A stretch of DNA of 64,000 bases from Bacteroidota bacterium. Its GTDB lineage: Bacteria > Bacteroidota > Ignavibacteria > UBA10030 > UBA6906. Positions 23,242 through 58,580 of this stretch are shown piece by piece. The stretch covers positions 62,001-126,000 of the forward strand of contig JAUQWO010000011.1 in assembly GCA_030835135.1 (NCBI GenBank). The letters run 5' to 3'. How positions within the stretch are numbered: the first letter of the stretch is position 1; every line of letters begins with the position of its first letter. The translations under genes and the position numbers were made by a program. The notes under the pieces are model-generated. The model was not told the origin of the DNA, did not search any database, and saw only the letters and a program-made list of their open reading frames with translations.

Positions 23242-24412
23242 CACAGGTACGCCGCCGCCCGCCGGCTCCGAACGGTCAACGATCCGGGAGCTGCTGAAGG
23301 TGCCGGTGGACCTTAGCGACCCGGTGGATGTGGACGGTGTCCTGGACCACTGGCTGTACGAGGGGTACGTCGACGATTCGCAGGGATGGAAGCGCCGCCT
23401 GTACTATATGATGAAGCCGCTGATTCCCAGGCCGATCCAGATCGCATTGCGGCAGCGGTATGTGAATGTGCAGGCGGAAACTGCGTTCCCCGCATGGCCC
23501 ATCGAGCCATTGCTCGTCACGAAAGTGGACGCCTATCTCCGGTCGTTGCTCGCAACGCGGCCGGAGGTCCCCCGGATCGCATACTGGCCGGGGAATGCCC
23601 GTGCGGCCTTCGTGATCACGCATGATGTGGAATGGGACACCGGTCTCCGGCGGGCTCCTGCGCTTGCGGCCCTGGAGAAGGAGCTGGGCTTCACATCGTG
23701 CTGGAACCTTGTGCCCGAGCGGTATCCGATCGACTGGGACATCGTGGACGAATTGAAGGCGGGAGGGTTTGAGATCGGGCTCCACGGACTGAAGCACGAC
23801 GGCAAACTGTTCCAGTCGCGTTCGGTCTTCACCGCGAGGCTTGCGGCCATCCACGCGTATGCACGGAAATGGGGCGCCGAGGGGTTTCGCTCCCCGTCGA
23901 CCCTGCGCAACGCCGCATGGATGACCGCGATGCAATTCACGTACGATAGTTCCTTTCCCGATACGGATCCGTATGAGCCGCAGACGGGAGGCTGCTGCAG
24001 CATCTGGCCGTATTTCCTGGGTTCCATGGTGGAACTTCCCCTGACGCTGCCGCAGGATCACACGTTGTTCGAGATCCTGCAGCACCGGGACATCCGTGTG
24101 TGGCAGGAAAAGATGGAGTGGATACTGCAGCACGGCGGTGTGGCAATGCTGAATATCCATCCGGACTACATGCTGGCGGATGACCGGTTGGCCCTCTACC
24201 GGGACCTGCTCCTCCACGTGAGATCCCTGCCGGGTGTGTGGCATTGCCAGCCCCGGGAGGCGGCCCGCTGGTGGCGCGACCGTCAGGCATCGGCGCTCCG
24301 GAGGGATGCCGGCGGGTGGCGGATCGAGGGACCTGCTGCCGGAAGGGGGAGCGTGCTCATGGCAAGGATGGGGAGCGATGGAGTGGTCACACACGACGCC
24401 GCGGCGGTGTGA
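23225..24412 (+). CDS. Polysaccharide deacetylase-family protein (second copy)
   Basis: 395 residues; starts inside the last 17 bp of the previous gene. NodB motif 1 'AFVITHDVEWDTG' and motif 2 'EIGLHGLKHDGK' (HxxxH) are present, and 'SPSTLRNAAWM' and 'LNIHPDYM' correspond to later catalytic-pocket motifs. No signal peptide. The first about 90 residues form a non-catalytic extension. It is not a close relative of the deacetylase at 15027, so the locus has two independent deacetylases. Its stop codon overlaps a CRP-like box that serves the next gene. Confidence 0.82.
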   Translation: MNMSPDTGTPPPAGSERSTIRELLKVPVDLSDPVDVDGVLDHWLYEGYVDDSQGWKRRLYYMMKPLIPRPIQIALRQRYVNVQAETAFPAWPIEPLLVTKVDAYLRSLLATRPEVPRIAYWPGNARAAFVITHDVEWDTGLRRAPALAALEKELGFTSCWNLVPERYPIDWDIVDELKAGGFEIGLHGLKHDGKLFQSRSVFTARLAAIHAYARKWGAEGFRSPSTLRNAAWMTAMQFTYDSSFPDTDPYEPQTGGCCSIWPYFLGSMVELPLTLPQDHTLFEILQHRDIRVWQEKMEWILQHGGVAMLNIHPDYMLADDRLALYRDLLLHVRSLPGVWHCQPREAARWWRDRQASALRRDAGGWRIEGPAAGRGSVLMARMGSDGVVTHDAAAV

Positions 24413-24423
24413 CGTGGCGCACA
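24408..24423. promoter_or_regulatory. CRP-like box E (TGTGA-N6-GCACA) upstream of the aminotransferase
   Basis: TGTGACGTGGCGCACA matches the CRP consensus in 9 of 10 half-site positions. It overlaps the stop codon region of the preceding deacetylase gene. A TAGATT element (TAnnTT class) starts at 24445, leaving exactly 21 bp between the two, the same gap as at boxes B, C and F. If transcription starts near 24457, the box is centred at about -41.5. Confidence 0.6.
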
Positions 24424-24444
24424 GATGATGAACAGGGACAACGG

Positions 24445-24450
24445 TAGATT
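24445..24450 (+). promoter_or_regulatory. -7/-10 element TAGATT for the aminotransferase gene
   Basis: Sits 21 bp after the CRP-like box E and about 50 bp before the ATG at 24499. TAnnTT is the core of the Bacteroidota-type promoter element TAnnTTTG. Confidence 0.45.
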
Positions 24451-24498: not shown

Positions 24499-25605
24499 AT
24501 GATGCGGATACCGTTTCTCGACCTCAAGGCGCAATACGCCTCTATCAAGGACGAAGTCCTTCCCGCCATCCACAATGTGCTCGACAATACCGCCTATGTC
24601 CTCGGCAAACCCGTCGCGGAATTCGAGGCGGTGTTTGCCCGCGAGCATGGTGTGCAATTCTGCTACGGATTGAGTTCGGGAACGGACGGCAACCATATCG
24701 TGCTCTGGGCCCTCGGCCTGAAAGCCGGTGATGAAGTGATCATGCCGGCGAACACGTTCATCGCCACCGCCTGGGGTGCGACGCTCTGCGGCGCGACCCC
24801 GGTGTTCGTGGATTGTGAAGCCGACAGCTACAACATCGACCCGAAGAAGGTCGAGGCGAAGATCACCCCGAAGACGAAGGCGATCGTTGCGGTGCACCTG
24901 TATGGCCAGCCCGCGGACATGGACCCGCTCCTCGAGATCGCGAAGAAGCACAAGATCGCGCTGGTGGAAGACTGTGCCCAGTCGCACCTCGCCGAATACA
25001 AGGGCAAGCGGACCGGCGGTCTTGCGGTCGCATCGTCCTTCAGTTTCTATCCGGGCAAGAACCTCGGCGCGTACGGCGAAGGTGGTGCGGCGGCAACGAA
25101 TGATGCGGCCCTGGCACGCACCTTCAAGATGATCCGCGACCATGGTGCCGAGAAGAAGTACTACCATGAGATGTACGGACACAACTACCGGATGGAAGGT
25201 ATCCAGGGCGCGGTCCTCGGCGTGAAGATGCGTCACCTCGCCGCATGGACGGAGGCCCGGCGGAAGAACGCCGCGCTCTACAACCAGGCGCTGAAGGGGA
25301 TCCCGGGCGTCGTCACGCCGGTGGAGATGCCGTACGCGAAGCACGTCTATCACCTGTACGTGATCCGCGCCCCGCGCCGTGATGCGCTCGCCAAGTCTCT
25401 CGAGGAGAACGGGATCGCCACCGGTCTGCATTATCCGATCCCGCTCCATATGCAGGAGGCGTTCAAGCACCTGGGCTACAAGCAGGGAGATTTCCCGGTC
25501 ACCGAAAAGGCCGCGGGTGAGATCCTGTCGCTGCCGATGTTCCCGGAATTGACCGCTGAACAGATCCAGTATGTCGCGGAGAAGGTCCGGGCGTTCTACG
25601 CGTAA
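24499..25605 (+). CDS. DegT/DnrJ/EryC1-family sugar aminotransferase
   Basis: 368 residues; ATG at 24499 or 24502. 'IPFLDLKAQYASIKDEVLPAI' is the usual family start and the PLP-binding lysine is in 'SFSFYPGKNLGAYGEGGA'. 'SGTDGNHIVLWALGLKAGDEVIMPANTFIATAWG' is the substrate/PLP pocket. Transfers an amino group from glutamate to a keto-sugar nucleotide. With the Gfo/Idh dehydrogenase and hexapeptide acetyltransferase of the next operon it forms a WbpB-WbpE-WbpD-like set for 3-acetamido sugars. It stands alone between its own promoter and a terminator. Confidence 0.88.
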   Translation: MMRIPFLDLKAQYASIKDEVLPAIHNVLDNTAYVLGKPVAEFEAVFAREHGVQFCYGLSSGTDGNHIVLWALGLKAGDEVIMPANTFIATAWGATLCGATPVFVDCEADSYNIDPKKVEAKITPKTKAIVAVHLYGQPADMDPLLEIAKKHKIALVEDCAQSHLAEYKGKRTGGLAVASSFSFYPGKNLGAYGEGGAAATNDAALARTFKMIRDHGAEKKYYHEMYGHNYRMEGIQGAVLGVKMRHLAAWTEARRKNAALYNQALKGIPGVVTPVEMPYAKHVYHLYVIRAPRRDALAKSLEENGIATGLHYPIPLHMQEAFKHLGYKQGDFPVTEKAAGEILSLPMFPELTAEQIQYVAEKVRAFYA

Positions 25606-26007: not shown

Positions 26008-26023
26008 CGTGATACAGGACACA
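26008..26023. promoter_or_regulatory. CRP-like box F (CGTGA-N6-ACACA), degenerate
   Basis: CGTGATACAGGACACA matches 8 of 10 half-site positions of TGTGA-N6-TCACA. On its own this would be weak, but a TACATT element starts at 26045, exactly 21 bp after it, as at boxes B, C and E. It precedes the sugar-transferase operon starting at 26165. Confidence 0.45.
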
Positions 26024-26044
26024 ACTCCCGCCTTGGGATCTTTC

Positions 26045-26050
26045 TACATT
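26045..26050 (+). promoter_or_regulatory. -7/-10 element TACATT for the sugar-transferase operon
   Basis: TACATTGT fits TAnnTT(T)G and is the only good element at the CRP-class spacing from box F. It predicts a leader of roughly 108 nt before the ATG at 26165. Confidence 0.4.
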
Positions 26051-26164: not shown

Positions 26165-27628
26165 ATGGTATCGCTTCGCAAACGAGCAGTGCACGCATTC
26201 ATCCTTCCCGTGCTGGACTGGCTCACCATCGTTGCGGCTTTGATCTTTGCGATCATCTTCCGTGGCCGGGAATTCGCGGGTGAATTCACCTTCGTGGGCG
26301 CGCCGCTTGAAGGTGAGATCGTCTTTCTTGTGACCTTTGGTGCCGCCGCGACCCTTTTCTTCCGTTACCAGAGTCTGTACAAGGTCAACGTCTTCGTCAC
26401 CGTGGCGGATCAGATCATCCGCATCCTGAAGGCGCTGTTGTACACGATCCTTGGCCTTGCCCTGCTGTCCTTCTTCATCCGGACCAATTGGATCCTGGAC
26501 AGCCGTCTTGCGATGGCGTACTTCAGCGTGGCGGCTGCCCTTCTGCTCATCGGCGGCCGGGCCATCGTCTTCCGCAACATCTATTTGTGGCTGTCCCGCC
26601 GGAAGGTGTTCCACCGTAACGCCCTGATCGTGGGCGCCGGGGAGAACGGCAAGAATCTGGCCATCAATCTGTTCCTGAATGACCACCTCGGCCTGAACCT
26701 CGTCGGGTTCCTGGATGACGAGCTTCCGCTGGGCAAGGTCGTGTTCAACCGGGCGAAGGTCATCGGCCGCGTTGCGGAGTTGAAGGATATCGTCAAGGTC
26801 TTCGAAGTGCAGGAAGTGATCATCAGTCTGGAGAATGTGGATCACGGCAGTCTGATCAATGTGCTCGAGATCGCGACGTCCACCGATGCGGTCGTGAAGA
26901 TCACCTCACCGCTGTACGATGTGGTGCCCGCGCGCCTGTTCATCGAGAAGTATGGCAACCTGCCCGTGGTCGGGGTGTCACAGTTCAGCCCGAGCCCGCT
27001 GATGGAAGTGTACAAGCGCATGTTCGATTCGCTGCTTGCCGCGTTGGGGTTGTTGCTGCTCGCGCCGCTCTTCGGAGCCATCGCGCTGGCGGTCAAGATG
27101 GGATCCGATGGTCCGGTGTTCTTCGCACAGACCCGCATCGGGAAAGGTGGCCGTCCGTTCAAATTTTACAAGTTCCGGTCCATGACGGTGGGCAGTGACA
27201 AGGACAAGGACCGGGAGAAGACTGTTGTGCAGTTCATGCAGACAAAAACCAAGAATACACCAACCGAACAGGCCTCTACCAAGATCGTTAACGAGTCGCG
27301 CGTGACGCCCATCGGGCGGTTCCTCCGCAAGACCAGCCTCGATGAGCTCCCGCAGCTGTTCAATGTGCTGAAGGGCGACATGAGTCTGGTCGGTCCGCGC
27401 CCCTGCCTCCCGTTCGAATGGGAACACTATGAGGAATGGCACAAGCGCCGCCTCAGCGTGATGCCCGGTTGCACGGGGATGTGGCAGGTCGCAGGCCGGA
27501 GCGTCGTCGGGTTCGAGGATATGGTCGTCCTGGACCTCTACTACATCCAGAATGCGTCGGTGCTGCTCGATTTCGGTCTCCTGCTCAAAACGCTTCCCGT
27601 GATGCTCTTCGGCTCCGGGGCCAAATAA
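26165..27628 (+). CDS. Polyprenyl-phosphate sugar-1-phosphate transferase (WbaP/WcaJ type)
   Basis: 487 residues. N-terminus with about four membrane helices, then a Rossmann-like CoA-binding-3 domain (about 145-270: '[19 protein letters not shown]'). A fifth helix at about 285-305 is followed by the catalytic bacterial sugar transferase domain with '[25 protein letters not shown]' (shown by its parts: Q-x-R-x-G, F-K-x-Y-K-F-R-S-M) and '[25 protein letters not shown]'. It starts repeat-unit synthesis by moving a sugar-1-phosphate to undecaprenyl phosphate at the inner membrane. First gene of the operon that ends at the terminator at 32295. Confidence 0.92.
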
Positions 27629-27640
27629 GGAACATCTCTG

Positions 27641-28645
27641 ATGAAGATCGGTGTCGTCGGTTTCGGGTACTGGGGACCGAACCTGGTCCGCAATTTCCAG
27701 GCAACGCCCTCAGTGGAGGGCGTGGTCTGTTTTGACGCCTCTGAAAAACGTCTTGCCACGGCGAAACAGAAGTTCCCCGCGCTGGAAACAGCGAAGACGT
27801 ACGAGGAACTCCTCGGACGCAAGGATGTCGCCGCTGTCGCGATCGCCACACCGGTCTCCACCCATTACGCTCTCGCCATGCAGGCGCTCAAGGCGGGCAA
27901 GCACGTGCTGCTCGAGAAGCCGATGACCGAGAGCGCGGCCCACGGCAAGGAACTGCTTGCCACCGCCGAACAGAACAAACTGATCCTCATGGTGGACCAC
28001 ACGTTCCTCTACACGGGTGCCGTCCGCAAGATCAAGGAGCTGGTGGACGACGGGCGCCTCGGTGAGATCATGTATTTCGACTCCGTGCGCGTGAACCTCG
28101 GACTGTTCCAGCACGACACGAATGTGGTCTGGGACCTCGCGCCGCACGACCTGTCGATCATGGACTATATCGTGGGACAGGAACCGCTGGCGGTGTCGGC
28201 GATCGGCGCGAAGCACTTCAGCGACAAGGAAGACATCGCCTACATCACCGTGCGCTATGCCAACCAGCTCCTCGCCCATTTCCATGTGAATTGGATGTCC
28301 CCGGTGAAGGTACGCAAGATCCTCATCGGCGGCAGCAAGCTGATGGTCGTGTACGACGACATGGAGCCCAGCGAGAAGATCCGGGTGTATGACAAGGGTG
28401 TCGACATCAAGGAACGCGAGTCGATCTACAAGGTGCTCGTGCAGTACCGTACCGGCGACATGTGGGCCCCGAAGGTGGATGTGAATGAAGCGCTGGCGCT
28501 GATGGCGGCCGACTTCGTCGAGTCGATCAAGACCGGCCGGCGCCCGACGGCCGATGGCCGCTCCGGCCTGAAGGTCGTGAAGATCCTGGAGGCGGCACAG
28601 GAGTCGCTGAAGCAGAATAGCGCGCTCATTCAGATCGTTCCCTGA
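27641..28645 (+). CDS. Gfo/Idh/MocA-family sugar-nucleotide dehydrogenase
   Basis: 334 residues. 'IGVVGFGYWGPNLVRNF' is the NAD-binding GxGxxG turn and 'AGKHVLLEKPMTESAAHGKEL' the family EKP motif. In O-antigen loci this family (WbpB-like) oxidises C3 of a UDP-acetamido-sugar uronate before transamination. An aminotransferase and acetyltransferase in the same locus fit that path. Ribosome site AAGGAA precedes the ATG 12 bp after the upstream stop. No WbpA-type UDP-GlcNAc dehydrogenase is visible here, so the exact substrate is open. Confidence 0.85.
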   Translation: MKIGVVGFGYWGPNLVRNFQATPSVEGVVCFDASEKRLATAKQKFPALETAKTYEELLGRKDVAAVAIATPVSTHYALAMQALKAGKHVLLEKPMTESAAHGKELLATAEQNKLILMVDHTFLYTGAVRKIKELVDDGRLGEIMYFDSVRVNLGLFQHDTNVVWDLAPHDLSIMDYIVGQEPLAVSAIGAKHFSDKEDIAYITVRYANQLLAHFHVNWMSPVKVRKILIGGSKLMVVYDDMEPSEKIRVYDKGVDIKERESIYKVLVQYRTGDMWAPKVDVNEALALMAADFVESIKTGRRPTADGRSGLKVVKILEAAQESLKQNSALIQIVP

Positions 28646-28678
28646 TATCCGTACATACTCATCACCGGAGAGACCATC

Positions 28679-29149
28679 ATGTCGTTGCAGAAGATCGCCC
28701 CCACGGTAAAGCTGGGCAAAGATGCCAAGGTCTATGATTTCGTGAATCTCTATGGCTGTGAGATCGGCGACCGCTCGAAGGTCGGCACGTTCGTGGAGAT
28801 CCAGAAGGGCGCGAAGATCGGCGCCGACTGCAAGATCTCCTCGCACACGTTCATCTGCGAAGGCGTGACCATCGAAGATGGCGTGTTCGTCGGCCATAAC
28901 GTATCATTCATCAATGACAAGTACCCGCGTTCCGTGAACGCCGACGGGTCGATGCAGACCGAGGCCGACTGGAGCGTGGTCACGACGCTGGTGAAGAAGG
29001 GCGCGTCCATCGGGACGAGCACGACGGTCCTGTGCGGCGTCACGATCGGCGAGGGTGCCATTGTCGGTGCCGGCAGCGTCGTGACGAAGGACGTGCCGGC
29101 GCACACGATCGTCGCCGGCGTACCGGCCCGCGTCATCCGTAAGGTCTGA
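28679..29149 (+). CDS. Hexapeptide-repeat sugar N-acetyltransferase (WbpD-like)
   Basis: 156 residues of left-handed beta-helix repeats: '(I/V)G..(S/A/C)(K/V)(I/V)G' steps at 20-130, with '[31 protein letters not shown]' containing the catalytic His region and a loop, and the end '[10 protein letters not shown]'. The length is normal for WbpD/QdtC-type enzymes. Acetylates the amino group put in by the DegT aminotransferase, using acetyl-CoA. Trimer in the cytoplasm. Sits between the dehydrogenase and the cytidylyltransferase genes. Confidence 0.85.
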
Positions 29150-29190
29150 TCCAACGCTCCACACCGAAACCACAGAAGGGGATTCCCTGC

Positions 29191-29967
29191 ATGAAGGTAG
29201 CGATCCTGGCCGGCGGTGTTGGCAGCCGCCTCTCCGAAGAAACGGAGATCAAGCCGAAACCCATGGTGGAGGTCGGCGGACGGCCGATCCTCTGGCATAT
29301 CCTGAAGCATTATTCGCATTATGGTTTCAATGAGTTCGCGATCGCCCTGGGGTACAAGGGCGAGTTCATCAAGAAGTACATGGTGGACTATGCGAACCTC
29401 AACAGCAACGCGATGACCGTCCGGATGCAGACGGGGAAGGTCGACATCGATGGCGGCTCGCGGCCCGACTGGACCGTGCACCTGGTGGACACCGGGATCT
29501 CCACGCTCACCGGCGGACGCATCAAGCGGCTGCAGCCGGTGATCGGGAATGAGACGTTCATGCTCACCTGGGGCGATGGTGTGTCCGATGTGAACCTGAT
29601 CGACCTCCTGAAGTTCCACAAGTCGCACGGCAAACTCGCCACGCTCACCGCGGTGCGCCCCCCGGCACGGTTCGGGCACATGGTGTTCGATGGCGATCAG
29701 ATCGTGCAATTCACGGAGAAGCCGCAGACCGGCGAAGGCTGGATCAACGGTGCGTTCTTCGTGCTGGACCCGAAGATCTTCGACTACATCGAAGGCGATG
29801 CGACGCAGTGGGAGCATGAGCCCCTGACGCGGCTCGCAAAAGAAGGACAGTTGATGGCGTACCGTCACTCCGGCTTCTGGCAGTGTATGGACACGTTACG
29901 CGACAAGAAACTGCTGGAAGATCTCTGGCAGAATGGCGGTGCACCCTGGAAAGTCTGGAAGGATTGA
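29191..29967 (+). CDS. rfbF: Glucose-1-phosphate cytidylyltransferase
   Basis: 258 residues, the usual length of RfbF. 'VAILAGGVGSRLSEETEIKPKPMVEVGG' gives the nucleotide-binding G-x-G-x-R loop and the KPKPM motif; 'LTWGDGVSDVNL' carries the metal-binding Asp; 'FTEKPQTGEGWINGAFFVL' and 'WQCMDTLRDK' are RfbF-typical. Makes CDP-glucose from glucose-1-phosphate and CTP. No CDP-glucose 4,6-dehydratase (RfbG) follows directly, so the fate of CDP-glucose may depend on the next SDR gene or genes elsewhere. AGGGGATT before the ATG. Confidence 0.92.
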   Translation: MKVAILAGGVGSRLSEETEIKPKPMVEVGGRPILWHILKHYSHYGFNEFAIALGYKGEFIKKYMVDYANLNSNAMTVRMQTGKVDIDGGSRPDWTVHLVDTGISTLTGGRIKRLQPVIGNETFMLTWGDGVSDVNLIDLLKFHKSHGKLATLTAVRPPARFGHMVFDGDQIVQFTEKPQTGEGWINGAFFVLDPKIFDYIEGDATQWEHEPLTRLAKEGQLMAYRHSGFWQCMDTLRDKKLLEDLWQNGGAPWKVWKD

Positions 29968-29968
29968 T

Positions 29969-30991
29969 ATGCGCGTTCTCGTCACCGGTCACCTCGGCTA
30001 TATCGGCACGGTCATGGTTCCCATGCTGCTGCAGGAAGGATGGGACGTCGTTGGTTTTGATACCGACCTGTTCGAACGCTCCACGTTCGGCGATGGCATC
30101 CACCAGGTGCCGAACATCAGGAAGGACATCCGCGACGTCGACGTCGCCGATGTGAAGGGCTTCGATGCGATCATCCACCTTGCGGGACTGTCCAACGACC
30201 CGCTGGGAGATCTCAACCCCAATCTCACCTACGATATCAATCATGTCGCTTCGGTGCGTCTCGCCGAGTGTGCCAAGAAAGCGGGCGTCCGCCGGTTCGT
30301 CTTCTCCTCCTCGTGCAGCAACTACGGCGCAGGCGGGGAAGACCTGCTGAACGAGCACTCGGCCTTCAACCCCGTCACCCCGTACGGGATCTCGAAGGTC
30401 CGCGTGGAACAGGACGTCACGAAGCTGGCGGACAGTTCGTTCAGCCCGACGTTCCTCCGGAACGCAACGGCGTTCGGCGTGTCGCCCCGTCTGCGGTTCG
30501 ACCTCGTGCTGAACAACCTGGTCGCCTGGGCCTTCACGACGGGCAAGGTCTTCATCAAGAGCGATGGTACGCCGTGGCGGCCGATCGTGCATATCGCGGA
30601 CATCTCGCGCGCATTCATCGCGGTGCTGAAGTCCCCGATCGAGCTCACGCACAACGAGGCGTTCAACGTCGCCCGCAACGAGGACAACTACCGGATCCGC
30701 GAGCTGGCGGACATCGTGAAGGACACCGTCCAAGGCACCGTGATCGAGTATGCGAAGGATGCCGGTCCGGACAAGCGGTGCTACCGGGTGGACAGCTCCA
30801 AGATCATGAAGACCCTGCCGGCATTCCAGCCGGTGTGGGATGCCCGCAAGGGCGCCGCGGAACTGCTCACGGCGTACACGAAGGTCGGCCTGAAGCTGGA
30901 TGATTTCGAAGGGACGAAGTATAAGAGGATCGACCACATCAAGATGCTCATGAATTCCGGTCTGCTCGGTGCGGACCTTCGCTGGAAATAG
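29969..30991 (+). CDS. NAD-dependent sugar-nucleotide epimerase/dehydratase (extended SDR)
   Basis: 340 residues from ATG 29969, one base after the previous stop; the frame extends upstream but only through the previous gene. Rossmann motif '[15 protein letters not shown]', '[12 protein letters not shown]', 'SSSCSNYG' and the catalytic YxxxK in 'TPYGISK' (about 140) are present. Placed between a CDP-glucose synthase and a C-methyltransferase-like gene, it most likely epimerises, dehydrates or reduces a CDP-sugar. The specific reaction cannot be given. Confidence 0.85.
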
Positions 30992-31016
30992 ACATCCCGG
31001 ACAGGACCCTGACTCT

Positions 31017-32420: not shown

Positions 32421-32440
32421 GGTTGCAAGTCGGGGGGGTG

Positions 32441-36208: not shown

Positions 36209-36219
36209 AGGTAGCAGGT

Positions 36220-49699: not shown

Positions 49700-49767
49700 C
49701 GGCGCGCACGGCAGCAGGGGGCTGACGCAGCACGACGAACCGGTTGGTGATCAGTGGTGGTTCAGGA

Positions 49768-49801: not shown

Positions 49802-49858
49802 CACATCTCTGACCGGCCCGGGTCGTTGTTCCACCGCACACTGAAAATGTTTCATCAC

Positions 49859-49877
49859 CTTCCCGGCAGCCGGGAAG
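49859..49877 (+). other. 5'-leader hairpin before the glycosyltransferase gene
   Basis: CTTCCCGG-CAG-CCGGGAAG, an 8-bp perfect stem with a 3-nt loop, ends 5 bp before the AAAGGAGA ribosome site of the 49896 gene. Could protect the mRNA or influence ribosome access. Confidence 0.5.
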
Positions 49878-49895
49878 TTACGAAAGGAGAATGTG

Positions 49896-50849
49896 ATGCC
49901 CCGCATCACTATCGGGATGCCCGTGTACAATGGCGAGCGCTTCATCGTTGAAGCCCTGGATGCCATCCTCGCCCAGACCTACAGGGACTTCGAACTGGTG
50001 ATCTCGGACAACGGTTCGACCGATACGACCGAAGAGATCTGCCGCCGGTATGCGGCACGCGACCCGCGTGTGCGGTACCACCGGGAATCCGTCAACCAGG
50101 GCGCATCGTGGAACTACAACCGCGTGGTCGAACTGGCGACCGGTGAGTTTTTCAAATGGGCAGCGCACGACGATCTGATCACTCCTGACTATCTCGAGAA
50201 ATGCGTCGGCGTCCTCGACCGTGACCCGGGCGTGGTGCTGTGCTGCACCGATGACCAGGATATCGATGAGGAGGGGGCACATGTGGATGCCCGGCGGCAT
50301 AGCCACATCCCCGGATCACAGCGAGGCAGCTCCGAATCCGTCTCCCAGCGCTTCCGGCGCCTCATCCGCGACGACTACGACTGTGAACAGGTCTTCGGGC
50401 TGTACCGCCTGTCCGTTCTCCGCAAGACCGGTCTGATCAAGAGCTACACGGATTCGGACAGGACCTTGCTTGCCGAGATCGCCCTGTACGGCCGCCTGTT
50501 CGAGATCCCCGAGCGCCTCTTCCTGCATCGCCAGCACACCGGGTCGTCGTGCAAAGCCAACCCGATCACGTCGGGCTGGCATGAGCGCGTCAGCTGGTTC
50601 GATCCCCGGCTGTCCGGCAAGGCCCTGTTCTCCCGCTGGAGACAACTGCGGGAGTATGTCATTGCGATCGTCCGTTCTCCGGTCCCGTTCACCGACAAGG
50701 CCGGCTCACTGCTCTGGCTTGTCCTGTTCCAACGTGGCCGTCTCCGGCAACTCGCACAGGAGATCATCGTCGGACTCCGTCTGAAGCTGTTCCCGCCGCG
50801 CGCGAAGACGGCGGTCCAGGCCTCCGGCACAACAGCCCTCGGGAAATAG
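49896..50849 (+). CDS. Glycosyltransferase family 2
   Basis: 317 residues. ATG 49896 is preferred over the GTG three bases upstream because AAAGGAGA ends 5 nt before it. 'PRITIGMPVYNGERFIVEALDAILAQTYRDFELVISDNGSTDTT' (in parts: G-M-P-V-Y-N-G, S-D-N-G-S-T-D) is the GT-A nucleotide-binding fold, and 'CCTDDQDID' holds the DxD metal site. No membrane segment, so a soluble inverting enzyme that acts on the lipid-linked glycan. Followed by another GT2 gene after 44 bp. Donor unknown. Confidence 0.88.
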   Translation: MPRITIGMPVYNGERFIVEALDAILAQTYRDFELVISDNGSTDTTEEICRRYAARDPRVRYHRESVNQGASWNYNRVVELATGEFFKWAAHDDLITPDYLEKCVGVLDRDPGVVLCCTDDQDIDEEGAHVDARRHSHIPGSQRGSSESVSQRFRRLIRDDYDCEQVFGLYRLSVLRKTGLIKSYTDSDRTLLAEIALYGRLFEIPERLFLHRQHTGSSCKANPITSGWHERVSWFDPRLSGKALFSRWRQLREYVIAIVRSPVPFTDKAGSLLWLVLFQRGRLRQLAQEIIVGLRLKLFPPRAKTAVQASGTTALGK

Positions 50850-50893
50850 AACCCCGGCCACGACCCACGCTGCGTGAACACGACCCGCTCCCT

Positions 50894-51826
50894 ATGATCC
50901 GGTTCAGCGTCGTCATCCCGACCTACAATCGCGCCCGCCTTATCGGGCGTGCGATCGACTGTGTGCTCCGTCAGTCCTTCCCCTGCCAGGAGCTCATCGT
51001 CGTGGACGACGGATCGTCAGACGAGACGGTGAATGTTGTACGCGCCGCCGGAGCCGGGGTCCGGCTGATCCAAGCGGATCATGGCGGCCCCTCGAAGGCC
51101 CGCAATCGCGGCGTGCGCGAGGCGGTCAGTGAGTGGATCGCATTCCTGGATTCCGATGATCTCTGGCATCCCGACTATCTCGAGCGCATGGCGCACGCCA
51201 TCGAGGTCACGAACGGCGCAGCCGCGTACTACTTTTCGGATGTGGAGTACCGGAACGGGACCGCATCCTGGCTCCACTGGACCAATTGCGGATTCCAGGT
51301 GCAGGAGCCTGTGACCCTGATCCCCCGGGCCACGGCATTGGTCACGGGTGAACGCCACCCCATGCTCCTGCCGTTCACCGTATTCCGCAGGGAGACATAT
51401 CTGGCGGATGGCGGGCTCATGGAATCCCTGTGGTCGGGCGAGGATACGCATCTGTTCATCCGCATCGGGCTGGTCGAGCCGTTGTGTGCGGTGGCGGGTG
51501 CGGGCGGAGTCGTCACCACCGATGAGACCGACCCGGGCAACCGTTTGACGATCGCCTTCAATACCAGCACGTCGCGCCGTTGGACAGGGATGGTCGAGAT
51601 GTACAAGGACCTGCTGTCCCGCGGTGGGATCCTGACGCGCGAAACGCGGGCGCTGTTCCGTTACCGTCTGGCGCATAGCTACTGGCGGGTGGCGCGCCTC
51701 AGTCTTGCCGAAAAGCGATTTGGCCAGGTGTGCATGCCGTTGCTCAGGTCTTTGACCACGGACCCCACCGTTGTTCCCCGGGTCTTTGTGGATGCCTTCC
51801 GGCGGGCCTTTCCCCGGTCTGCGTGA
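50894..51826 (+). CDS. Glycosyltransferase family 2
   Basis: 310 residues. 'FSVVIPTYNRARLIGRAIDCVLRQSF' and 'IVVDDGSSDETVNVV' form the GT-A nucleotide site; 'WIAFLDSDDLWHPDYL' has the DxD metal motif. Second of two consecutive family 2 enzymes, likely in one operon with 49896. No strong ribosome site. Acceptor and donor unknown. Confidence 0.88.
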   Translation: MIRFSVVIPTYNRARLIGRAIDCVLRQSFPCQELIVVDDGSSDETVNVVRAAGAGVRLIQADHGGPSKARNRGVREAVSEWIAFLDSDDLWHPDYLERMAHAIEVTNGAAAYYFSDVEYRNGTASWLHWTNCGFQVQEPVTLIPRATALVTGERHPMLLPFTVFRRETYLADGGLMESLWSGEDTHLFIRIGLVEPLCAVAGAGGVVTTDETDPGNRLTIAFNTSTSRRWTGMVEMYKDLLSRGGILTRETRALFRYRLAHSYWRVARLSLAEKRFGQVCMPLLRSLTTDPTVVPRVFVDAFRRAFPRSA

Positions 51827-51892: not shown

Positions 51893-51904
51893 GTATATTG
51901 TCAC
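51893..51904 (+). promoter_or_regulatory. Conserved upstream element GTATATTGTCAC (copy 2)
   Basis: Identical to 44598-44609 and again exactly 30 bp before the start of a CRP-like box (51923). Confidence 0.5.
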
Positions 51905-51922
51905 GTGTTTCGGGGGTCACCC

Positions 51923-51938
51923 TGTGACGTACGGCACA
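51923..51938. promoter_or_regulatory. CRP-like box C (TGTGA-N6-GCACA)
   Basis: TGTGACGTACGGCACA, 9 of 10 half-site matches. TATCTT starts at 51960, a 21-bp gap, inside the same TGCTATCTTGA as at box B. Serves the glycosyltransferase/flippase operon that starts at 52019. Confidence 0.65.
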
Positions 51939-51959
51939 TGGCGTGCCGCGGCAAAATGC

Positions 51960-51965
51960 TATCTT
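51960..51965 (+). promoter_or_regulatory. -7/-10 element TATCTT (in TGCTATCTTGA), copy 2
   Basis: Same 11 bases as at 44662-44672 and the same distance from its CRP-like box. Predicted leader about 47 nt to the ATG at 52019. Confidence 0.55.
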
Positions 51966-52018: not shown

Positions 52019-53239
52019 ATGTTCGTGATCATGATGCAATTCTACTCGAGTACCCCGGCACCCGACATGCATGAGATGGCGCGCGCATTGCGGGGCGACG
52101 GACATCGGGTATGGGTTGCGACGCCGGATGCTGCGGGCGACCTCCAGTGGGAAACGGGCGAGGCGACGGGTGTTCCTGCAGTGCGCGGCGTTCGTCCGCT
52201 CCCGGCGATCCTGTCACGGATCAAACCCTTCGCCATGCTGGGTGAGCGTTTCACGCAGCTCGCGTACCTCTTCCGGGTGCGACGCGTATTGGCCGACGCC
52301 CGACCCGACATCGTTCAGGTGAATCCGCCTGCCTATGCTCTGATCTTCCCGCTGTTCGGACCCCGCACGAGTGCGTATGTCCTCGATGTGCGACAGGCCG
52401 GTGAGGTCGCGCGCGACGGCCTGGTCGGACGGATCAAGAACTGGCGGTCGGTGATCGGACTCCGGTGGAACGCGCGCTGGTTCTATGACTGGTCGTGCTT
52501 CGCAACCGAAGCCGCGGCCGAACGGATACTGGGTCCGCGCTGGGAACGTCATGCCTCCGTCCACCGTGTCGGCCAGGACCCGTCCTTCCTTTCATGGCAA
52601 TGGCCGTCTGTTGCGACAACGCCCTCCACAGAACCCGTCCGGTTCGTGTACGTCGGCACGATCAGTCGCGTCCGTGAACTGGAACTTCTGCTTGAAGCCA
52701 TCCGCGCGGTGGTGCACGCAGGCGCGGACCTCCGGGTCTCGTTTGTCGGGCCTGATGATGAAGGTGGACACTATCAGCGTCTCTCCTCATCGCTCGGTCT
52801 TGACCCCATTGTGCAATTCCACCAGCCCGTGCCCTACGCCCGGGTTGCCGCGTTCGTTGCCCGGCACGACGTTGCGCTCGCGTATGTTCCGCCGCGGCCC
52901 GATTGGAACTATCAGCCTACACTCAAGGTGCTCGAGTACCGCGCACTCGGGATGCCGATCATCGCCTCGGATAACCCGCCGAACAGGGAGGTCGTGGAGG
53001 ATGGCCGGAATGGCCTGCTCGTGGAACATGATGCCGTGGCCCTCAGGCGTGCCATAGCGCGCTATGCGACAGACAGGGGTTTTCTGGCAGCGAGTACTGC
53101 CGCGGCGCGGATGATGCGGCAGGGCAGGACATGGGCAGACTCGGCCCGTCTCTATCATGAGGGGGTCTATGTGCGGATCGCCTCCCGGAAGCGGGGACAG
53201 ACCCCGCCGGCCATCGCCAGAACAGGAGGCCGGGCATAG
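52019..53239 (+). CDS. Glycosyltransferase, GT-B fold (family 4-like)
   Basis: 406 residues, a normal GT4 length. N-terminal 'MQFYSSTPAPDMHEMARALRGDGHRVWVATP' Rossmann start; C-terminal 'RFVYVGTISRVRELELLLEAI' and the donor block 'LKVLEYRALGMPIIASDNPPNREVVEDGRNGLLVE'. Cytoplasmic. First gene after the box C promoter; its stop (TAG 53237-53239) overlaps a possible ATA start of the flippase. No clear ribosome site. Sugar specificity unknown. Confidence 0.87.
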   Translation: MFVIMMQFYSSTPAPDMHEMARALRGDGHRVWVATPDAAGDLQWETGEATGVPAVRGVRPLPAILSRIKPFAMLGERFTQLAYLFRVRRVLADARPDIVQVNPPAYALIFPLFGPRTSAYVLDVRQAGEVARDGLVGRIKNWRSVIGLRWNARWFYDWSCFATEAAAERILGPRWERHASVHRVGQDPSFLSWQWPSVATTPSTEPVRFVYVGTISRVRELELLLEAIRAVVHAGADLRVSFVGPDDEGGHYQRLSSSLGLDPIVQFHQPVPYARVAAFVARHDVALAYVPPRPDWNYQPTLKVLEYRALGMPIIASDNPPNREVVEDGRNGLLVEHDAVALRRAIARYATDRGFLAASTAAARMMRQGRTWADSARLYHEGVYVRIASRKRGQTPPAIARTGGRA

Positions 53240-53277
53240 GATCGATCGGAAGAAAAGCGGTCCGGGGATCGCTCTTC

Positions 53278-54696
53278 ATGGGTGGCGCGCGGATCGGCCT
53301 CACAGTCATCACCACGGTGTCGAGCATTCTCCTCGCCAGGAAATTGACCGCCGAAGAGTTCGGCTTTGTCGATATGGCGGTGCTTGCGATCATGATGACG
53401 AGCTTGTTCTCAGGTCTGGGGCTCAGCTTTGCCGTGATCCAGAGTCAGGTGGCACGGCGGCCGCTGGCATTCCATGCATTCATCATCACCTCCACGACCG
53501 GAGGCGTTCTCGCCCTCGTCATCGGGCTCCTGGCGGAACCGATCGCGTCGCTCTTCGGCAACGCGGCTGCTGCTCCGGTGTTCCGCTGGCTTGCCCCGAT
53601 GGTGCTTTTCGGAGGCCTGGGTCTCATCCCCGACGCACTCATGCAGAAGGACATGCTCTTTGGCCGCGTGAGTGCTGTGGCGATCCTGACGGAGATCGCG
53701 TATGTGGTGGTCGCCGTGACGCTCGCCTACAGCGGCTATGGCGTCTGGTCCCTGGTCTGGGCTCTCTTCGTCCGCTCGGCACTGGCGGTGACGACGAACT
53801 GGGTGCTGTCACCGGGATGGGATTGGATCCGCCCGGTCCCATGGGATTGGAACCTGGTGCGGTCGCTGTTGCGGTTCGGCCTCACTGCCGCCGGCGGCGG
53901 CCTGATCACGTTTGCGTACTCCATGACGGACGGGTTCGCCGTATCGCGCTGGCTGGGGGCCGCTGCGCTCGGTGTGTACCAGCGTTCGGTGAACCTGACC
54001 AGCAGATCGATCGATGGGATGAACAATGCCGTCAGTGCCGTCCTGCTGCCTTCGTATGTCCAGTTGCAGAACGATCCGCCCAGACTCAGTCAGGCCTATC
54101 TGAAGAGTCTCCGGCTGCTGGGCATTGTGCTCGTGCCGGTGGGGTGCGGACTGATGGTCCTTGCCCGCGATCTGGTCGTGACGCTGCTTGAAGCCCGCTG
54201 GTTGCCGATGGTGCTGCCGTTCCAGATCTTCAGCATGGTGAGCACCGTGAAACCGCTCTCCGCCACGACCTCGGTCCTGTTCACCGCCGTGGGACGGCCG
54301 GGAGTGAATTTCAAGGCGGGTGCGATCGTTCTCGCCGTGATGATCCCGATGATCGTCGTGCTCCTGCCGTTCGGCGTCGGCGGCGTCGCGTGCGCGGTGC
54401 TTGTCTCACAGATCGCGGGTTTCGTGTACAACCTCATACAGGTCCACAAGGTCCTCCCCGGAACCCCGATCGGCATGTTCCGTGCGCTCCGCCCCTCTCT
54501 CTTCGCCGGCGGCGTCATGGTGGCGGCGGTCTCCGTGGCCATACCGTTGGTCCATGGCTGGACCGGCCAGGATGCGGGCATCGTGAACCTTGTCGCATTG
54601 ATCGCGATCGGCGTCATCTCTTATACCGGCGCATTGTACGCTGTGCAGCCCTCCCTCCCGGGGGAACTCTTCGAATTGATCTTGAAACGAAAATGA
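53278..54696 (+). CDS. Lipid-linked oligosaccharide flippase (Wzx/WzxC-type)
   Basis: 472 residues from ATG 53278, with about 12-14 hydrophobic segments and the 'LLARKLTAEEFGFVDMAVL' motif of WzxC/polysaccharide-biosynthesis flippases. 'LGAAALGVYQRSVNLTSRSIDGMNN' and 'LLPSYVQLQNDPPRLSQAY' are also typical. Moves undecaprenyl-linked repeat units across the inner membrane. The family's usual basic N-terminus ('IGRKAVRGSLF') is encoded upstream of the ATG, after AGGAGG and an ATA codon at 53236, so the real start may be ATA 53236 (see findings). Confidence 0.88.
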   Translation: MGGARIGLTVITTVSSILLARKLTAEEFGFVDMAVLAIMMTSLFSGLGLSFAVIQSQVARRPLAFHAFIITSTTGGVLALVIGLLAEPIASLFGNAAAAPVFRWLAPMVLFGGLGLIPDALMQKDMLFGRVSAVAILTEIAYVVVAVTLAYSGYGVWSLVWALFVRSALAVTTNWVLSPGWDWIRPVPWDWNLVRSLLRFGLTAAGGGLITFAYSMTDGFAVSRWLGAAALGVYQRSVNLTSRSIDGMNNAVSAVLLPSYVQLQNDPPRLSQAYLKSLRLLGIVLVPVGCGLMVLARDLVVTLLEARWLPMVLPFQIFSMVSTVKPLSATTSVLFTAVGRPGVNFKAGAIVLAVMIPMIVVLLPFGVGGVACAVLVSQIAGFVYNLIQVHKVLPGTPIGMFRALRPSLFAGGVMVAAVSVAIPLVHGWTGQDAGIVNLVALIAIGVISYTGALYAVQPSLPGELFELILKRK

Positions 54697-54736
54697 ACAG
54701 CCACGTGTATCATTCACGAGACAAAGGAACGATGCG

Positions 54737-55933
54737 ATGACCTCCCCACAGATCCATGAAACATGCCCGGCGTGCGGTGCGGGGCGCATGACCCCATTCT
54801 TCGAGGTGCGGGGCGTCCCGGTCAACAGCGTGCTGCTGTTGCCGACGCGCGAAGAAGCAGTGAACTTCCCCAAAGGCGATATCGTCCTCGGGTTCTGCGA
54901 GACATGCGGGTTCATTTCGAACATCGCGTTCGATCCGGCGGAACAGGAATACTCGGCCCGCTATGAGGCGACCCAGGCATACTCAGGGACGTTCACCGCG
55001 TTCCACAAGGGTCTGGCGGAACGCCTGATCCAGAAATACGGGTTGCGCGACAAGACCCTGATCGAGATCGGCTGTGACAAAGGCGATTTCCTGACGATGC
55101 TCTGCGAACTCGGCAACAACCGCGGCTTCGGCTTCGATCCGGCCTACGTCCCCGACCGTATCCCGAGTCCCGCGAAAGACCGGATGACGTTCATCGCGGA
55201 CTTCTATGGCGAAGCCTACCAGAAGTATGCTGCCGATTTCGTGTGCTGCAAGATGACGCTCGAACACATACCGACGGTGGCGGATTTCATGAAGACCGTC
55301 CGGCGCTCCATCGGGAACCGCTCCGAGACCATCGTGTTCTTCCAGATCCCCGAAGTGCGGAGGATCCTGCGGGAGGTGGCGTTCTGGGATGTGTATTACG
55401 AGCATTGCTCGTACTTCAGCAAGGGATCGCTCGCCCGTCTGTTCCGCAAGACCGGATTCGATGTGATGGAACTCGGGACCGAATATGACGATCAGTACCT
55501 GATGATCGAAGCGCGCCCGGGTACGGGCTCCGGCCCCGCACCGCTCCCCGAGGAAGACGATCTGGAATCCCTGCGCCAGGATGTGGCCTACTTCACCAGC
55601 ACGTTGCAGACGACGCTCGAACGCTGGCAGAAGCGGTTGCGGGAGATCACGGCCGCCGGCCGCAAGGCCGTGATCTGGGGCGGCGGGTCGAAGGGCGTGG
55701 CATTCCTGACCAAACTGAACATCGTGGATGAGATCCGCTACGCGGTGGATATCAATCCGCTCAAGACGGGGACGTTCATGGCAGGCACCGGGCAGGAGAT
55801 CGTGGGTCCGGAGTTCCTGAAGACCTACAAGCCCGACCTCGTCATCGTGATGAACCCGATCTATATGCCGGAGATCGGCGCGGAGTTGCAGCGTCTGGGC
55901 GTGTCGGCAGAACTCCTTCCTATTACCGCATGA
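54737..55933 (+). CDS. Class I SAM methyltransferase, sugar C-methyltransferase-like (tandem copy 1)
   Basis: 398 residues. Two Cys pairs ('CPACGAG', 'FCETCGF') for an N-terminal zinc finger; SAM site 'LIEIGCDKGDFL'; 'DVYYEHCSYFS' active-site segment; C-terminal 'VIWGGGSKGVAFLTKLN'. Layout equals the C-methyltransferase at 31017, but the SAM loop and C-terminal motif are closer to the next gene. AAAGGAAC precedes the ATG. Substrate probably a nucleotide- or lipid-linked sugar, not defined. Confidence 0.85.
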   Translation: MTSPQIHETCPACGAGRMTPFFEVRGVPVNSVLLLPTREEAVNFPKGDIVLGFCETCGFISNIAFDPAEQEYSARYEATQAYSGTFTAFHKGLAERLIQKYGLRDKTLIEIGCDKGDFLTMLCELGNNRGFGFDPAYVPDRIPSPAKDRMTFIADFYGEAYQKYAADFVCCKMTLEHIPTVADFMKTVRRSIGNRSETIVFFQIPEVRRILREVAFWDVYYEHCSYFSKGSLARLFRKTGFDVMELGTEYDDQYLMIEARPGTGSGPAPLPEEDDLESLRQDVAYFTSTLQTTLERWQKRLREITAAGRKAVIWGGGSKGVAFLTKLNIVDEIRYAVDINPLKTGTFMAGTGQEIVGPEFLKTYKPDLVIVMNPIYMPEIGAELQRLGVSAELLPITA

Positions 55934-55937
55934 GGTC

Positions 55938-57140
55938 ATGATGAGCGCAACCGCATCCTCCGTGCCGGCCGGGTGTACCGCCTGTGGCGCCGCCACCGTT
56001 CGGTCATTCGTGCAGATCACGGATGTTCCCATTCACTGCAATCTGTTGTGGCCGGACCATGACAGCGCGCGGCGTGCGCCGCGGGGACAGATCACGCTTT
56101 CGTTCTGCAGTACCTGCGGCCATGTGTTCAACAGCGCGTTCGATCCCTCGCTGATGGAGTACACCCAGGCATACGAGAACTCCCTGCACTTCTCTCCCCG
56201 CTTCCAGGCGTATGCCGAGGCCCTGGCGGCGCGACTCGTGGACCGCTATCAGATCCGCGGGATGGATGTGATCGATGTCGGGTGCGGGAAAGGGGATTTT
56301 CTCGCGATGGTCTGCGAACACGGGAACAACCGCGGCTACGGGTTCGATCCGTCGTTCGTGCCGGAGAACATGTCCGCCGAGAAAGCGGCACGCATGACGA
56401 TCGTGCAGGATTTCTATTCGGCGAAGTACGCCGGCACGAAAGCAGACCTCATCACCTGCCGCCATGTCCTCGAACATATCCAGTTCCCGCGCGAGTTCGT
56501 CCGCAATGTGCGCCAGACGGTGGGGGACCGGATGAACACCCTCGTGTTCTTCGAGGTGCCCAACGTGATGTACACCCTGAAGGACCTGGGGATCTGGGAC
56601 CTGATCTACGAACACTGTTCGTACTTTTCCGTCCCGTCGCTGCGTGAGGTGTTCCGTTCCTGTGGCTTCACGGTGAAGGAACTCCACGAACTGTATGAAG
56701 GACAGTTCCTGGGCATTGACACGGTGGCGGCACACGCGCCAGCGGCCTCGCCGGACGTGGCCACGGCGGAGGATGTCCGGCGCATCGATGGGTTCGTGAC
56801 GAAGTTCGCCGAGGAATATGCGTCGAAGGTGGCGCTGTGGCGCTCACGCCTGGGAGAGTGGAAGGCCCGCCGTGCGTCCGTTGCGGTGTGGGGCGGTGGA
56901 TCGAAGGGGGTGACCTTCCTGAACGTCCTGAACCCCGGCGATACGGTTTCCTGCATGGTGGACATCAACCCACGCAAGCAGGGGATGTTCGTTGCGGGGA
57001 CGGGTCAGCGCGTCGTCGCGCCCGAACATCTCCGGACGGTCACGCCGGATGTCGTGATCATCATGAACCCCGTGTACCGCGACGAGATCGCGGGTCAGTT
57101 GAAGGCCCTCGGCCTCACGCCGGAGATCATGGTGGCGTAA
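55938..57140 (+). CDS. Class I SAM methyltransferase, sugar C-methyltransferase-like (tandem copy 2)
   Basis: 400 residues, starting 4 bp after the stop of the preceding gene (ATG 55938 or 55941). Cys pairs 'CTACGAA' and 'FCSTCGHV', SAM site 'VIDVGCGKGDFL', 'LIYEHCSYFS' and 'VWGGGSKGVTFL' run parallel to copy 1, so this is a tandem duplication that has diverged. The 3' end overlaps the convergent gene at 57127 by 14 bp. Probably the last gene of the operon that began at 52019. Confidence 0.85.
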   Translation: MMSATASSVPAGCTACGAATVRSFVQITDVPIHCNLLWPDHDSARRAPRGQITLSFCSTCGHVFNSAFDPSLMEYTQAYENSLHFSPRFQAYAEALAARLVDRYQIRGMDVIDVGCGKGDFLAMVCEHGNNRGYGFDPSFVPENMSAEKAARMTIVQDFYSAKYAGTKADLITCRHVLEHIQFPREFVRNVRQTVGDRMNTLVFFEVPNVMYTLKDLGIWDLIYEHCSYFSVPSLREVFRSCGFTVKELHELYEGQFLGIDTVAAHAPAASPDVATAEDVRRIDGFVTKFAEEYASKVALWRSRLGEWKARRASVAVWGGGSKGVTFLNVLNPGDTVSCMVDINPRKQGMFVAGTGQRVVAPEHLRTVTPDVVIIMNPVYRDEIAGQLKALGLTPEIMVA

Positions 57141-58278
57141 GACCGGAAGCCGATCCGACGATGTCCGTGTAGATCGTCCGCACACGTGCAGCATAACGCT
57201 CAGGGTCGTGGTCAGCCTGGATGCGGTCCAGGCAGGCCACGGCCCTTGTGCGTATCGAGGCCGGGTCGTCGAGTATCGACCGGAGGTGTTCATACACACC
57301 GAGGTGGATCGCCCGGGAGATCTCCGCGGTTCCCCCGCTGTTAATGCCTGCTGCCTGCCCCCATTCATCCCGCGCCAACCGCACGACCCATCCCGCAGCA
57401 TCCGGATTGATCTCTTCGAGGGCACAGACGTTCGTCGTGATCACGGGAGTTCCGGATGCCTGTGCCTCCAGAACGGAGAAACCATAGGTGTCGTCGTACG
57501 TGGGCAGCAACGCAACATGGGAGTCGCGCAACAGTCGCAGGACGTCCGGGTTCGCCATTTCACCATGCAGCCTCACGGCACTCCCGAGTCCGGTGATCCG
57601 CTCCACCAGTTCGGTCCGGTCACGCTCACTGCTCCGCGTAGCGTAATCGCCAACGTCCAGCGATGAGACGATATCCAGCTCGATCGACCGTCCTTCGCCG
57701 ATGAGGCGGAACACGGCATCGACCACTTCACGCCCCCCCTTGCGAAAGAAATCCCGTCCGACGAAAACACACCGGAGTGTGCCGGCCGGGAGACGCTTCT
57801 CATCGAGGCTGCGGACCAGGAGCCGCTGCGGCGGATGGAGGACCTCGATCTTCGCCGCGATCGCTGCTCCGATGTCCTCCCGGGAGGAGAGGAGTTGCTC
57901 CTGAGCCCTGCGGGCGTAGTCACTGAGAGCGAGAAGCCTCCTGCACCGCGGGCTCGCGAGCAGGCGCATCCCGAACGGCGAACGGGGATCCCACCGTGGC
58001 ACGTAATGCTCGAAGGACACGATCCACGGCGTTGGTGTCGTCCCGATCGTGTTCACGAAATGGTAGAGGTCCCGCAACGGGAGTCCGGGATCCCAGTGAT
58101 AGTTGTTCGTGAATGTGGTGGCGTGGTGATGCCCGAGCACCTTCCTGTTCAGGAAGTTCGCCAGGGCCATCGGACCCCGCGTGGTGATGAGCTGGATCTC
58201 CGGAGAGGGGATATGCTCGAGCAAACGCTGGGAAACGTAGCCGTCTCCCTGAACGCCAACGCGAAGGACCCTGGGCAT
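57127..58278 (-). CDS. Glycosyltransferase, GT-B fold (family 4-like), minus strand
   Basis: 383 residues from ATG 58278; the frame extends to a TTG at 58326 but the ATG starts the fold ('RVLRVGVQGDGYVSQRLLEH'). The C-terminal half has 'LRCVFVGRDFFRKGGREVVDAV', 'DSHVALLPTYDDTYGFSVLEAQASGTPVITTNVCALEEI' (donor-binding glutamates). It is the only large gene on this strand in the window. No good ribosome site, but TATATTGG on the minus strand at 58330-58323 could be its promoter element. Its 3' end overlaps the convergent methyltransferase gene by 14 bp. Confidence 0.85.
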   Translation of the reverse strand: MPRVLRVGVQGDGYVSQRLLEHIPSPEIQLITTRGPMALANFLNRKVLGHHHATTFTNNYHWDPGLPLRDLYHFVNTIGTTPTPWIVSFEHYVPRWDPRSPFGMRLLASPRCRRLLALSDYARRAQEQLLSSREDIGAAIAAKIEVLHPPQRLLVRSLDEKRLPAGTLRCVFVGRDFFRKGGREVVDAVFRLIGEGRSIELDIVSSLDVGDYATRSSERDRTELVERITGLGSAVRLHGEMANPDVLRLLRDSHVALLPTYDDTYGFSVLEAQASGTPVITTNVCALEEINPDAAGWVVRLARDEWGQAAGINSGGTAEISRAIHLGVYEHLRSILDDPASIRTRAVACLDRIQADHDPERYAARVRTIYTDIVGSASGLTPP

Positions 58279-58580
58279 AGATGATCGACGATCGTGGGGG
58301 GAATGTCCGTGAACAACACAGACCAATATAGTCCTTCAGGTGGTTTCCCGCAACATCTTGCGAACATCGGCTCTCGTGCTACTGGAGATGGGTGACGTCG
58401 GGCGAAGAGAGGTCACTGCTTTGTAGAATCATCTCCCCCGATCTTCATGTCACCCGTGTTGCTGCGCCGAACACACATGGGAACATTGCCCTTCCTGCCG
58501 CCCAATCGCGCCTTTTCCTCTGACGTGGTGCATGGCACGTCGTGTGACCTGAGACACACGGACACACAACAGGAAGGGCA
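58279..58580. other. 302-nt divergent intergenic region
   Basis: Non-coding DNA between the minus-strand glycosyltransferase and the beta-helix gene. It holds the possible minus-strand promoter element near 58323-58330, the CRP-like box D at 58543-58558 and the AGGAAGG ribosome site at 58571. I see no other structure. Confidence 0.6.
58543..58558. promoter_or_regulatory. CRP-like box D (TGTGA-N6-ACACA), no promoter at the usual spacing
   Basis: TGTGACCTGAGACACA matches 9 of 10 half-site bases and shares the flanking CGTGTGACC and ACACAC with box B. It ends only 13 bp before the AGGAAGG ribosome site of the beta-helix gene. No TAnnTT element lies 20-21 bp downstream, so it may act as a repressor site, or work on a promoter further upstream. 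Confidence 0.5.

Follow-up and report, generated by a model that had tools for sequence, protein, structure and literature searches.

Two of the described systems closest to the one presented here are Clp of Xanthomonas, whose ligand is cyclic di-GMP (c-di-GMP), and Bcam1349 of Burkholderia; we know of no targets in the type IX secretion system (T9SS) for either. Both are described as CRP-family regulators of exopolysaccharide (EPS) genes in Proteobacteria, Clp in PMC5449483 and Bcam1349, which has c-di-GMP as its ligand, in PMC3584217. In E. coli the CRP site reads TGTGA-N6-TCACA and, at class II promoters such as galP1, is described as lying over the -35 region (PMC5449483). Within the wider phylum, BT4338 (Cur/MalR) of Bacteroides thetaiotaomicron is a master regulator that has been placed in the CRP family, with less than 18% identity to CRP and a proposed consensus wwwTATGTTnTAnAACATAwww, in a species reportedly without relatives of crp and cya (PMC6989115). 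For Ignavibacteria, our literature search found no paper on a CRP regulon with EPS or T9SS targets and one CRP/FNR-regulon study that includes this class, in which MalR-like and Flp-like CRP/FNR homologs were predicted in metagenome-assembled genomes (MAGs) and their targets sought with the MalR matrix, and in the main text of which the terms exopolysaccharide, TGTGA and class II are absent (PMC8510549). Here we describe a 64,000-nucleotide stretch (the window) of contig JAUQWO010000011.1 from a Bacteroidota bacterium of the class Ignavibacteria, in which boxes of the E. coli type, TGTGA-N6-TCACA, unlike the BT4338 consensus, precede EPS genes and genes for surface proteins with T9SS sorting tails. 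As a cis-regulatory feature, a conserved class II CRP-family regulon of EPS and T9SS surface genes in this uncultured Ignavibacteria family is well supported by the sequence comparisons.

The initial annotation had named six boxes, A to F, and their coordinates and mismatch counts were verified (none in A, one each in B to E, two in F). Each of the six also proved to lie within an intergenic gap or at its border, box E overlapping the final 5 bases of the preceding frame. A TAnnTT element starts 21 bp past four of the boxes (B, C, E, F) and 20 bp past A, also as first described. A 21-bp gap to the -10 element follows from a site centre at -41.5, and the TGTGA-N6-TCACA sites taken together with this spacing have, on their sequence, the geometry of a class II CRP-dependent promoter. 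A CRP-family activator is likely, in our view, to bind at E, F, A, B and C, where it would cover the -35 region (centre near -41.5) for class II activation, with a sigma70-like TAnnTT as the -10 element. The activator would most likely be the conserved 227-residue CRP homolog encoded at G000:C60 (locus L011), turning on the EPS/T9SS surface block.

The initial annotation had further taken the promoters to be of a Bacteroidota-type, hybrid form. The Bacteroidota -7 consensus is TAnnTTTG, and the TG follows the element in just 1 of 22 promoters (D excluded; for A of the window, the element at 20 bp was taken), so that this reading of the 21-bp element was rejected. Box A is followed by two TAnnTT elements, at 20 and 25 bp in the window (32405-32446) and at 21 and 26 bp in genomes G014 and G015 (loci L111 and L113); the second of these, at 25-26 bp (TATCTTTC, TATCTTTG, TAACTTTG), is closer to TAnnTTTG, and the -10 of A is ambiguous between the two. 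The regulator's own gene has a TTGACTT-N16-TATATT-like promoter in 10 of the 11 family loci parsed out of 18, the eleventh (L163) holding only 16 upstream bases. The rarity of TG after TAnnTT, together with the TTGACTT/TATATT promoter of the regulator gene, points to an ordinary sigma70-like -10, which would be a simpler reading than a hybrid promoter. In five of the 11 parsed loci (L164, L166, L176, L177, L178) the sequence CTTGACTTTnnTCACA (2 mismatches) takes up the -35 region of this gene, 8 bp 5' of TATATT, with a good right half-site and a weak left half; autorepression of this gene is possible.

The boxes could in principle be chance palindromes near AT-rich promoter DNA, and when up to two mismatches are allowed the palindrome by itself is indeed without enrichment in the window (23 found against 26.8 expected); the signal lies in the better matches and in the spacing. 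Palindromes with at most one mismatch number six in the window, namely A to E and an intragenic one at 45579, where the density of the whole genome (G000; 4.9 Mb in 88 contigs, of which the window is part) predicts about 1.1 per 64 kb; genome-wide the count is 84, and that of the reversed pattern 38. The box followed at 21 bp by TAnnTT, with at most two mismatches overall, occurs four times in the window against a mean of 0.10 in 100 shuffles (maximum 3, none reaching 4), which bears out the expectation that the combined motif exceeds shuffled sequence. The pattern TGTGACN6CACA-N20-22-TAnnTT matches five sites in G000, four of them in the window (A, B, C and E), with no control match, and nine sites over 21 family genomes against one control match; since the pattern was shaped after the window had been seen, the clustering in the window is partly post hoc and is taken as supporting only. 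Reversed-pattern controls across four scans gave matches to control matches of 10 to 1, 84 to 38, 16 to 5 and 9 to 1. Further sites of box plus TAnnTT at one mismatch lie elsewhere in G000, on contigs C31, C45 and C23, and were set aside.

The spacing recurs in relatives. Among 42 oriented palindromes with at most one mismatch in 273,810 bases of relatives, mostly EPS and surface loci, TAnnTT stands at 21 bp five times and no more than twice at each of the remaining offsets between 10 and 44, and the looser TAnnnT, adopted only after the relatives had been seen, stands at 21 bp ten times and at other offsets likewise at most twice. In 25 regions lying 5' of target-gene relatives within the family, the box with TAnnTT at 21 bp was found in five (at most one mismatch) or seven (at most two) against means of 0.0 and 0.005 in 400 shuffles, and TAnnnT in 10 or 12 against 0.0025 and 0.055, a separate run of 200 shuffles giving the same TAnnnT counts; with at most one mismatch, 18 other spacings yielded just two matches, both at 26 bp. 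Left out of this set were two relatives of F (L112, L118) and one of B (L128) with too little upstream sequence, and L093 (34% identical, no site). Of 67 oriented perfect palindromes, drawn from any locus of the family, 6 are followed by TAnnTT at 21 bp, and 25 other offsets together give five. Perfect palindromes with TATGTT or TACGTT at 21 bp in several genomes proved to be a conserved coding stretch, presumably of an isoleucyl-tRNA synthetase, and were rejected (8 of 75 rows of the family list, 7 of 90 of the class list); the letter H with which the pattern for the family list ends excludes sites with C at that position. Some sites enter more than one of the three tests, two of spacing and one of conservation, and the tests are not wholly independent of each other.

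Sites E (aminotransferase), F (sugar-transferase operon) and A and B (surface-protein genes) are conserved, in five genera in all: g1 (G000, G014, G015), g2 (G001-G003), g3 (G004, G005), g5 (G007) and g13 (G020). With TAnnnT and at most two mismatches the architecture is present in 4 of 8 regions for E, 5 of 9 for F, 2 of 4 for A, 1 of 3 for B and 0 of 1 for C. For E, box and TAnnTT at 21 bp are found in G020 and G007, with TAGAAT in G005 and TAAAAT in G004; for F, TACATT is kept in G005 and G004, and also in G014 at three mismatches (scored as a miss in the 25-region count), with g2 presenting only the variant TGTGTGGG..CTCACA and TAnnAT. Box A is kept in G014 and G015 at 21 bp, and B in G015 (L124) at two mismatches. 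The architecture is kept 5' of orthologous or syntenic target genes in other genera, and box and -10 are retained across spacers that have mostly diverged. A further member lies outside the window, before an open reading frame (ORF) of 47-51 residues, its promoter kept in G000, G015 and G005 (three genomes, two genera); the 49-residue version has no Pfam match, and CGTATATT stands directly 5' of the palindrome at these small-ORF promoters. In view of the shuffles of the window and of the relatives' upstream regions, the reversed-pattern controls and the conservation despite diverged spacers, chance is a most improbable account of the set and can hardly explain A, B, E and F; box D may still be such a palindrome.

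A gene of the CRP/FNR family, which the initial annotation had suggested looking for, is present. The genome has 13 loci for cyclic-nucleotide (cNMP) binding proteins, several of them CRP/FNR-like, and a motif scan for SRE[T/A].[S/G]R found the CRP-type helix, as TSRETISR, in one of the 13, L011. Reading of the boxes by another paralog, such as L012 with its helix LRVETVIR, would draw on this number of candidates; the confinement of the motif to L011, with L012, L019 and L020 carrying other helices, renders it improbable. Matches to L011 over at least 214 of its 227 residues, at 89-100% identity, occur in 18 of the 21 family genomes, its own included, and in G012 the homolog is split over two contigs. 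TSRETISR is found in 79 of the 80 regulator loci kept out of 148 found, and the nearest named relatives are uncultured Ignavibacteria/Bacteroidetes MAGs. Identity between L011 and E. coli CRP is 31% across 170 positions, with SRET aligned and TSRETISR set against CSRETVGR; the helix of L011 has the R-E...R residues with which CRP reads GTGA. In NCBIfam, CRP is the best family for L011 at 99 bits, below the equivalog cut-off of 266 bits. The solved structures nearest by sequence, with SRET aligned, bear CRP/FNR-family titles in the PDB and are presumably GlxR of Corynebacterium and CRP of Mycobacterium, which belong to another phylum and have other target genes. The acidic patch of L011, DDDGRE, recurs in similar form in many of its relatives and is taken by us to match the sigma-contacting activating region 3 (AR3) of CRP. 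Within the family L011 is 89-99% identical, against 47-86% for the best sugar-transferase matches in eleven relatives, a difference which suggests a regulon larger than the sites found here.

Several observations weigh against activation of these promoters by L011. At the level of the class (197 genomes), 90 matches over spacings 16-26 compare with about 53 for the reversed control, with a weak excess at 21 bp (16 sites, against 3-15 at other spacings); within the family the 21-bp rule is well established, and outside it no more than suggestive. As many as 13 of the 25 relative upstream regions are without the architecture even at two mismatches, at which level single matches also appear at spacings 12, 14, 17 and 23 and two at 26, and the sites of G002 and G003 are near copies, not separate events. 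The gap at A is 20 and not 21 in its own genome, and C has no box in the single relative region available (L117) and hence no support outside its own genome. A full-length regulator was not found in G014 (88% complete), where the sites are kept, nor in G016 (95%). Finally, T127 and S128 of E. coli CRP are replaced by A and D in L011 and in most of the fetched relatives.

Those two residues contact adenine in E. coli CRP, and with both replaced L011 is classed as a CRP-family protein, not as a proven cyclic AMP (cAMP) receptor. Instead of cAMP the ligand might be another molecule such as c-di-GMP, which would couple surface polymers to that signal through the same class II sites, a possibility to which we give less than even weight. 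The changed residues and two GGDEF proteins in the genome would fit it, as would the precedent of Bcam1349, a c-di-GMP-responsive CRP/FNR-family regulator described as controlling EPS (PMC3584217); the retention of the phosphate-binding stretch FGE-x8-RSA (FGEMAILDGLARSA in L011; FGE-x8-R among fetched relatives) and the presence of only two GGDEF proteins against three class III cyclases argue the other way. With both kinds of enzyme encoded, either cAMP or c-di-GMP may be the ligand. Binding of the boxes by L011, activation from them and a response to a nucleotide ligand are what we infer from these comparisons.

Repression by the boxes, at least at some promoters, would apply where a box overlaps or follows a second start, as upstream TATATT elements may bring about at B, C and the small-ORF promoter, and at D. 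It is favoured by TATATTGTCAC 5' of B and C, by the position of CGTATATT and by the lack of a -10 at 21 bp from D, whereas activation would account for the sharply set 21-bp gap between box and downstream -10 that different genera show, and we regard repression as unlikely. Box D, which had been counted as a member with the same promoter, has no TAnnTT or other -10 at 21 bp on either strand and was rejected as a promoter of this kind; it is possibly an operator only. A further element, TATNTTGTCACNTG, occurs at B (44599-44612), at C (51894-51907), at B of G015 (L124 2769-2782) and, on the minus strand, in the E region of G004 (L119 2630-2643); it was found in no other of the 303 loci scanned, the other five loci listed being copies of B or C. 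It may serve these same promoters as an additional promoter or operator element.

Table 1. Predicted promoters, associated elements, gene groups and the candidate regulator; coordinates are those of the window unless a contig is given.
Feature	Coordinates	Strand	Description	Family matches
Promoter E	24408..24450	+	Box 24408-24423 and TAGATT, 21-bp gap; before DegT-type aminotransferase	
Promoter F	26008..26050	+	Box 26008-26023 and TACATT, 21-bp gap; before sugar-transferase operon	
Promoter A	32405..32446	+	Perfect box 32405-32420 and TATATT, 20-bp gap (TATCTT at 25); before surface-protein genes	
Promoter B	44628..44670	+	Box 44628-44643 and TGCTATCTT, 21-bp gap; before DUF1349 protein and following genes	
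Promoter C	51923..51965	+	Box 51923-51938 and TGCTATCTT, 21-bp gap; before glycosyltransferase/flippase operon	
Box D	58543..58558	+	In gap between minus-strand glycosyltransferase (57127-58326) and 58581	
Second element at B	44599..44612	+	TATATTGTCACCTG, 5' of B; also at C and at B of G015	
Second element at C	51894..51907	+	TATATTGTCACGTG, 5' of C	
Target of E	24499..25605	+	DegT/DnrJ/EryC1 sugar aminotransferase	PF01041
Operon after F	26165..32249	+	EPS glycosylphosphotransferase, Gfo/Idh oxidoreductase, hexapeptide protein, nucleotidyltransferase, epimerase, C-methyltransferase	TIGR03025 (over cut-off)
Genes after A	32522..44513	+	Surface proteins, starts 32522, 36342, 39625, 41529; T9SS sorting tails in 4 of 4	PF18962, TIGR04183, fn3
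Genes after B	44743..51826	+	DUF1349 protein, T9SS-tailed protein, two family 2 glycosyltransferases	
Operon after C	52019..57140	+	Group 1 glycosyltransferase, MOP-type flippase, two methyltransferases	
Gene downstream of D	58581..61778	+	Beta-helix/carbohydrate-binding-module (CBM) protein with T9SS tail	
Candidate regulator	G000:C60; L011 1168-1851	minus	CRP homolog L011, 227 residues; cNMP-binding domain and Crp HTH	PF00027, PF13545
Small-ORF promoter	G000:C9:34028-34070 (L001); also L046, L049		Before ORF MKK.WTVAALLAVA...PVAGDANDIFEWE	
Large ORF at window start	8-9307		3099 residues; FlgD-like tail	Ig-like/fn3-type

The gene groups that follow the boxes are listed in Table 1. Domains of fn3 type were found in all three Pfam-scanned surface proteins after A, the protein starting at 39625 lying outside that scan. 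No box was found in the examined gaps of the cluster part at 10,378-24,400, nor in the gaps at 36208, 39449 and 49699, and these boxless internal gaps suggest that each box, E apart, heads a multi-gene unit. An earlier reading of the region had omitted the glycosyltransferase gene at 57127-58326, which runs on the minus strand against the direction of the genes around it and overlaps the end of the 55938-57140 methyltransferase gene by 14 bases; its presence puts D in a divergent gap.

One activator site at a near-constant distance from the -10, placed before five gene groups and in some cases kept in related genera, indicates that the cluster is probably under a single CRP-type regulator. A rise in its ligand would lead the activator to turn on five transcription units forming one 33-kb block of EPS and T9SS surface-protein genes. 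Of the original proposal that a CRP/FNR-type class II site marks a surface-polymer regulon, the conserved architecture, the fixed spacing and the matching regulator gene stand, and the hybrid promoter and the membership of D with the same promoter fall away; C was not found before its one available relative. Compared with E. coli CRP, the box, its position and the SRET stretch are alike, while the targets here are EPS and T9SS surface genes in Ignavibacteria and T127/S128 are not kept; the MalR-like and Flp-like proteins predicted earlier share with L011 that they are CRP/FNR homologs of Ignavibacteria (PMC8510549).

That a CRP-family protein is tied to EPS genes is already known from Xanthomonas and Burkholderia (PMC5449483, PMC3584217), and this limits the surprise. 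The present sites suggest a CRP-like system in this branch, as against BT4338 with another site in B. thetaiotaomicron, the comparison being with that one Bacteroidota species (PMC6989115). With a rule of site plus spacing that is valid in several genera of one family, the regulon can be predicted there from sequence, and surface polymer genes are linked to a regulator that is very conserved. More tentatively, a near-invariant CRP-family regulator of the Ignavibacteria with a changed nucleotide pocket may, on a non-cAMP signal, co-activate the EPS machinery and the T9SS proteins through class II promoters; if this is true, the polymer and the protein coat would be made together.

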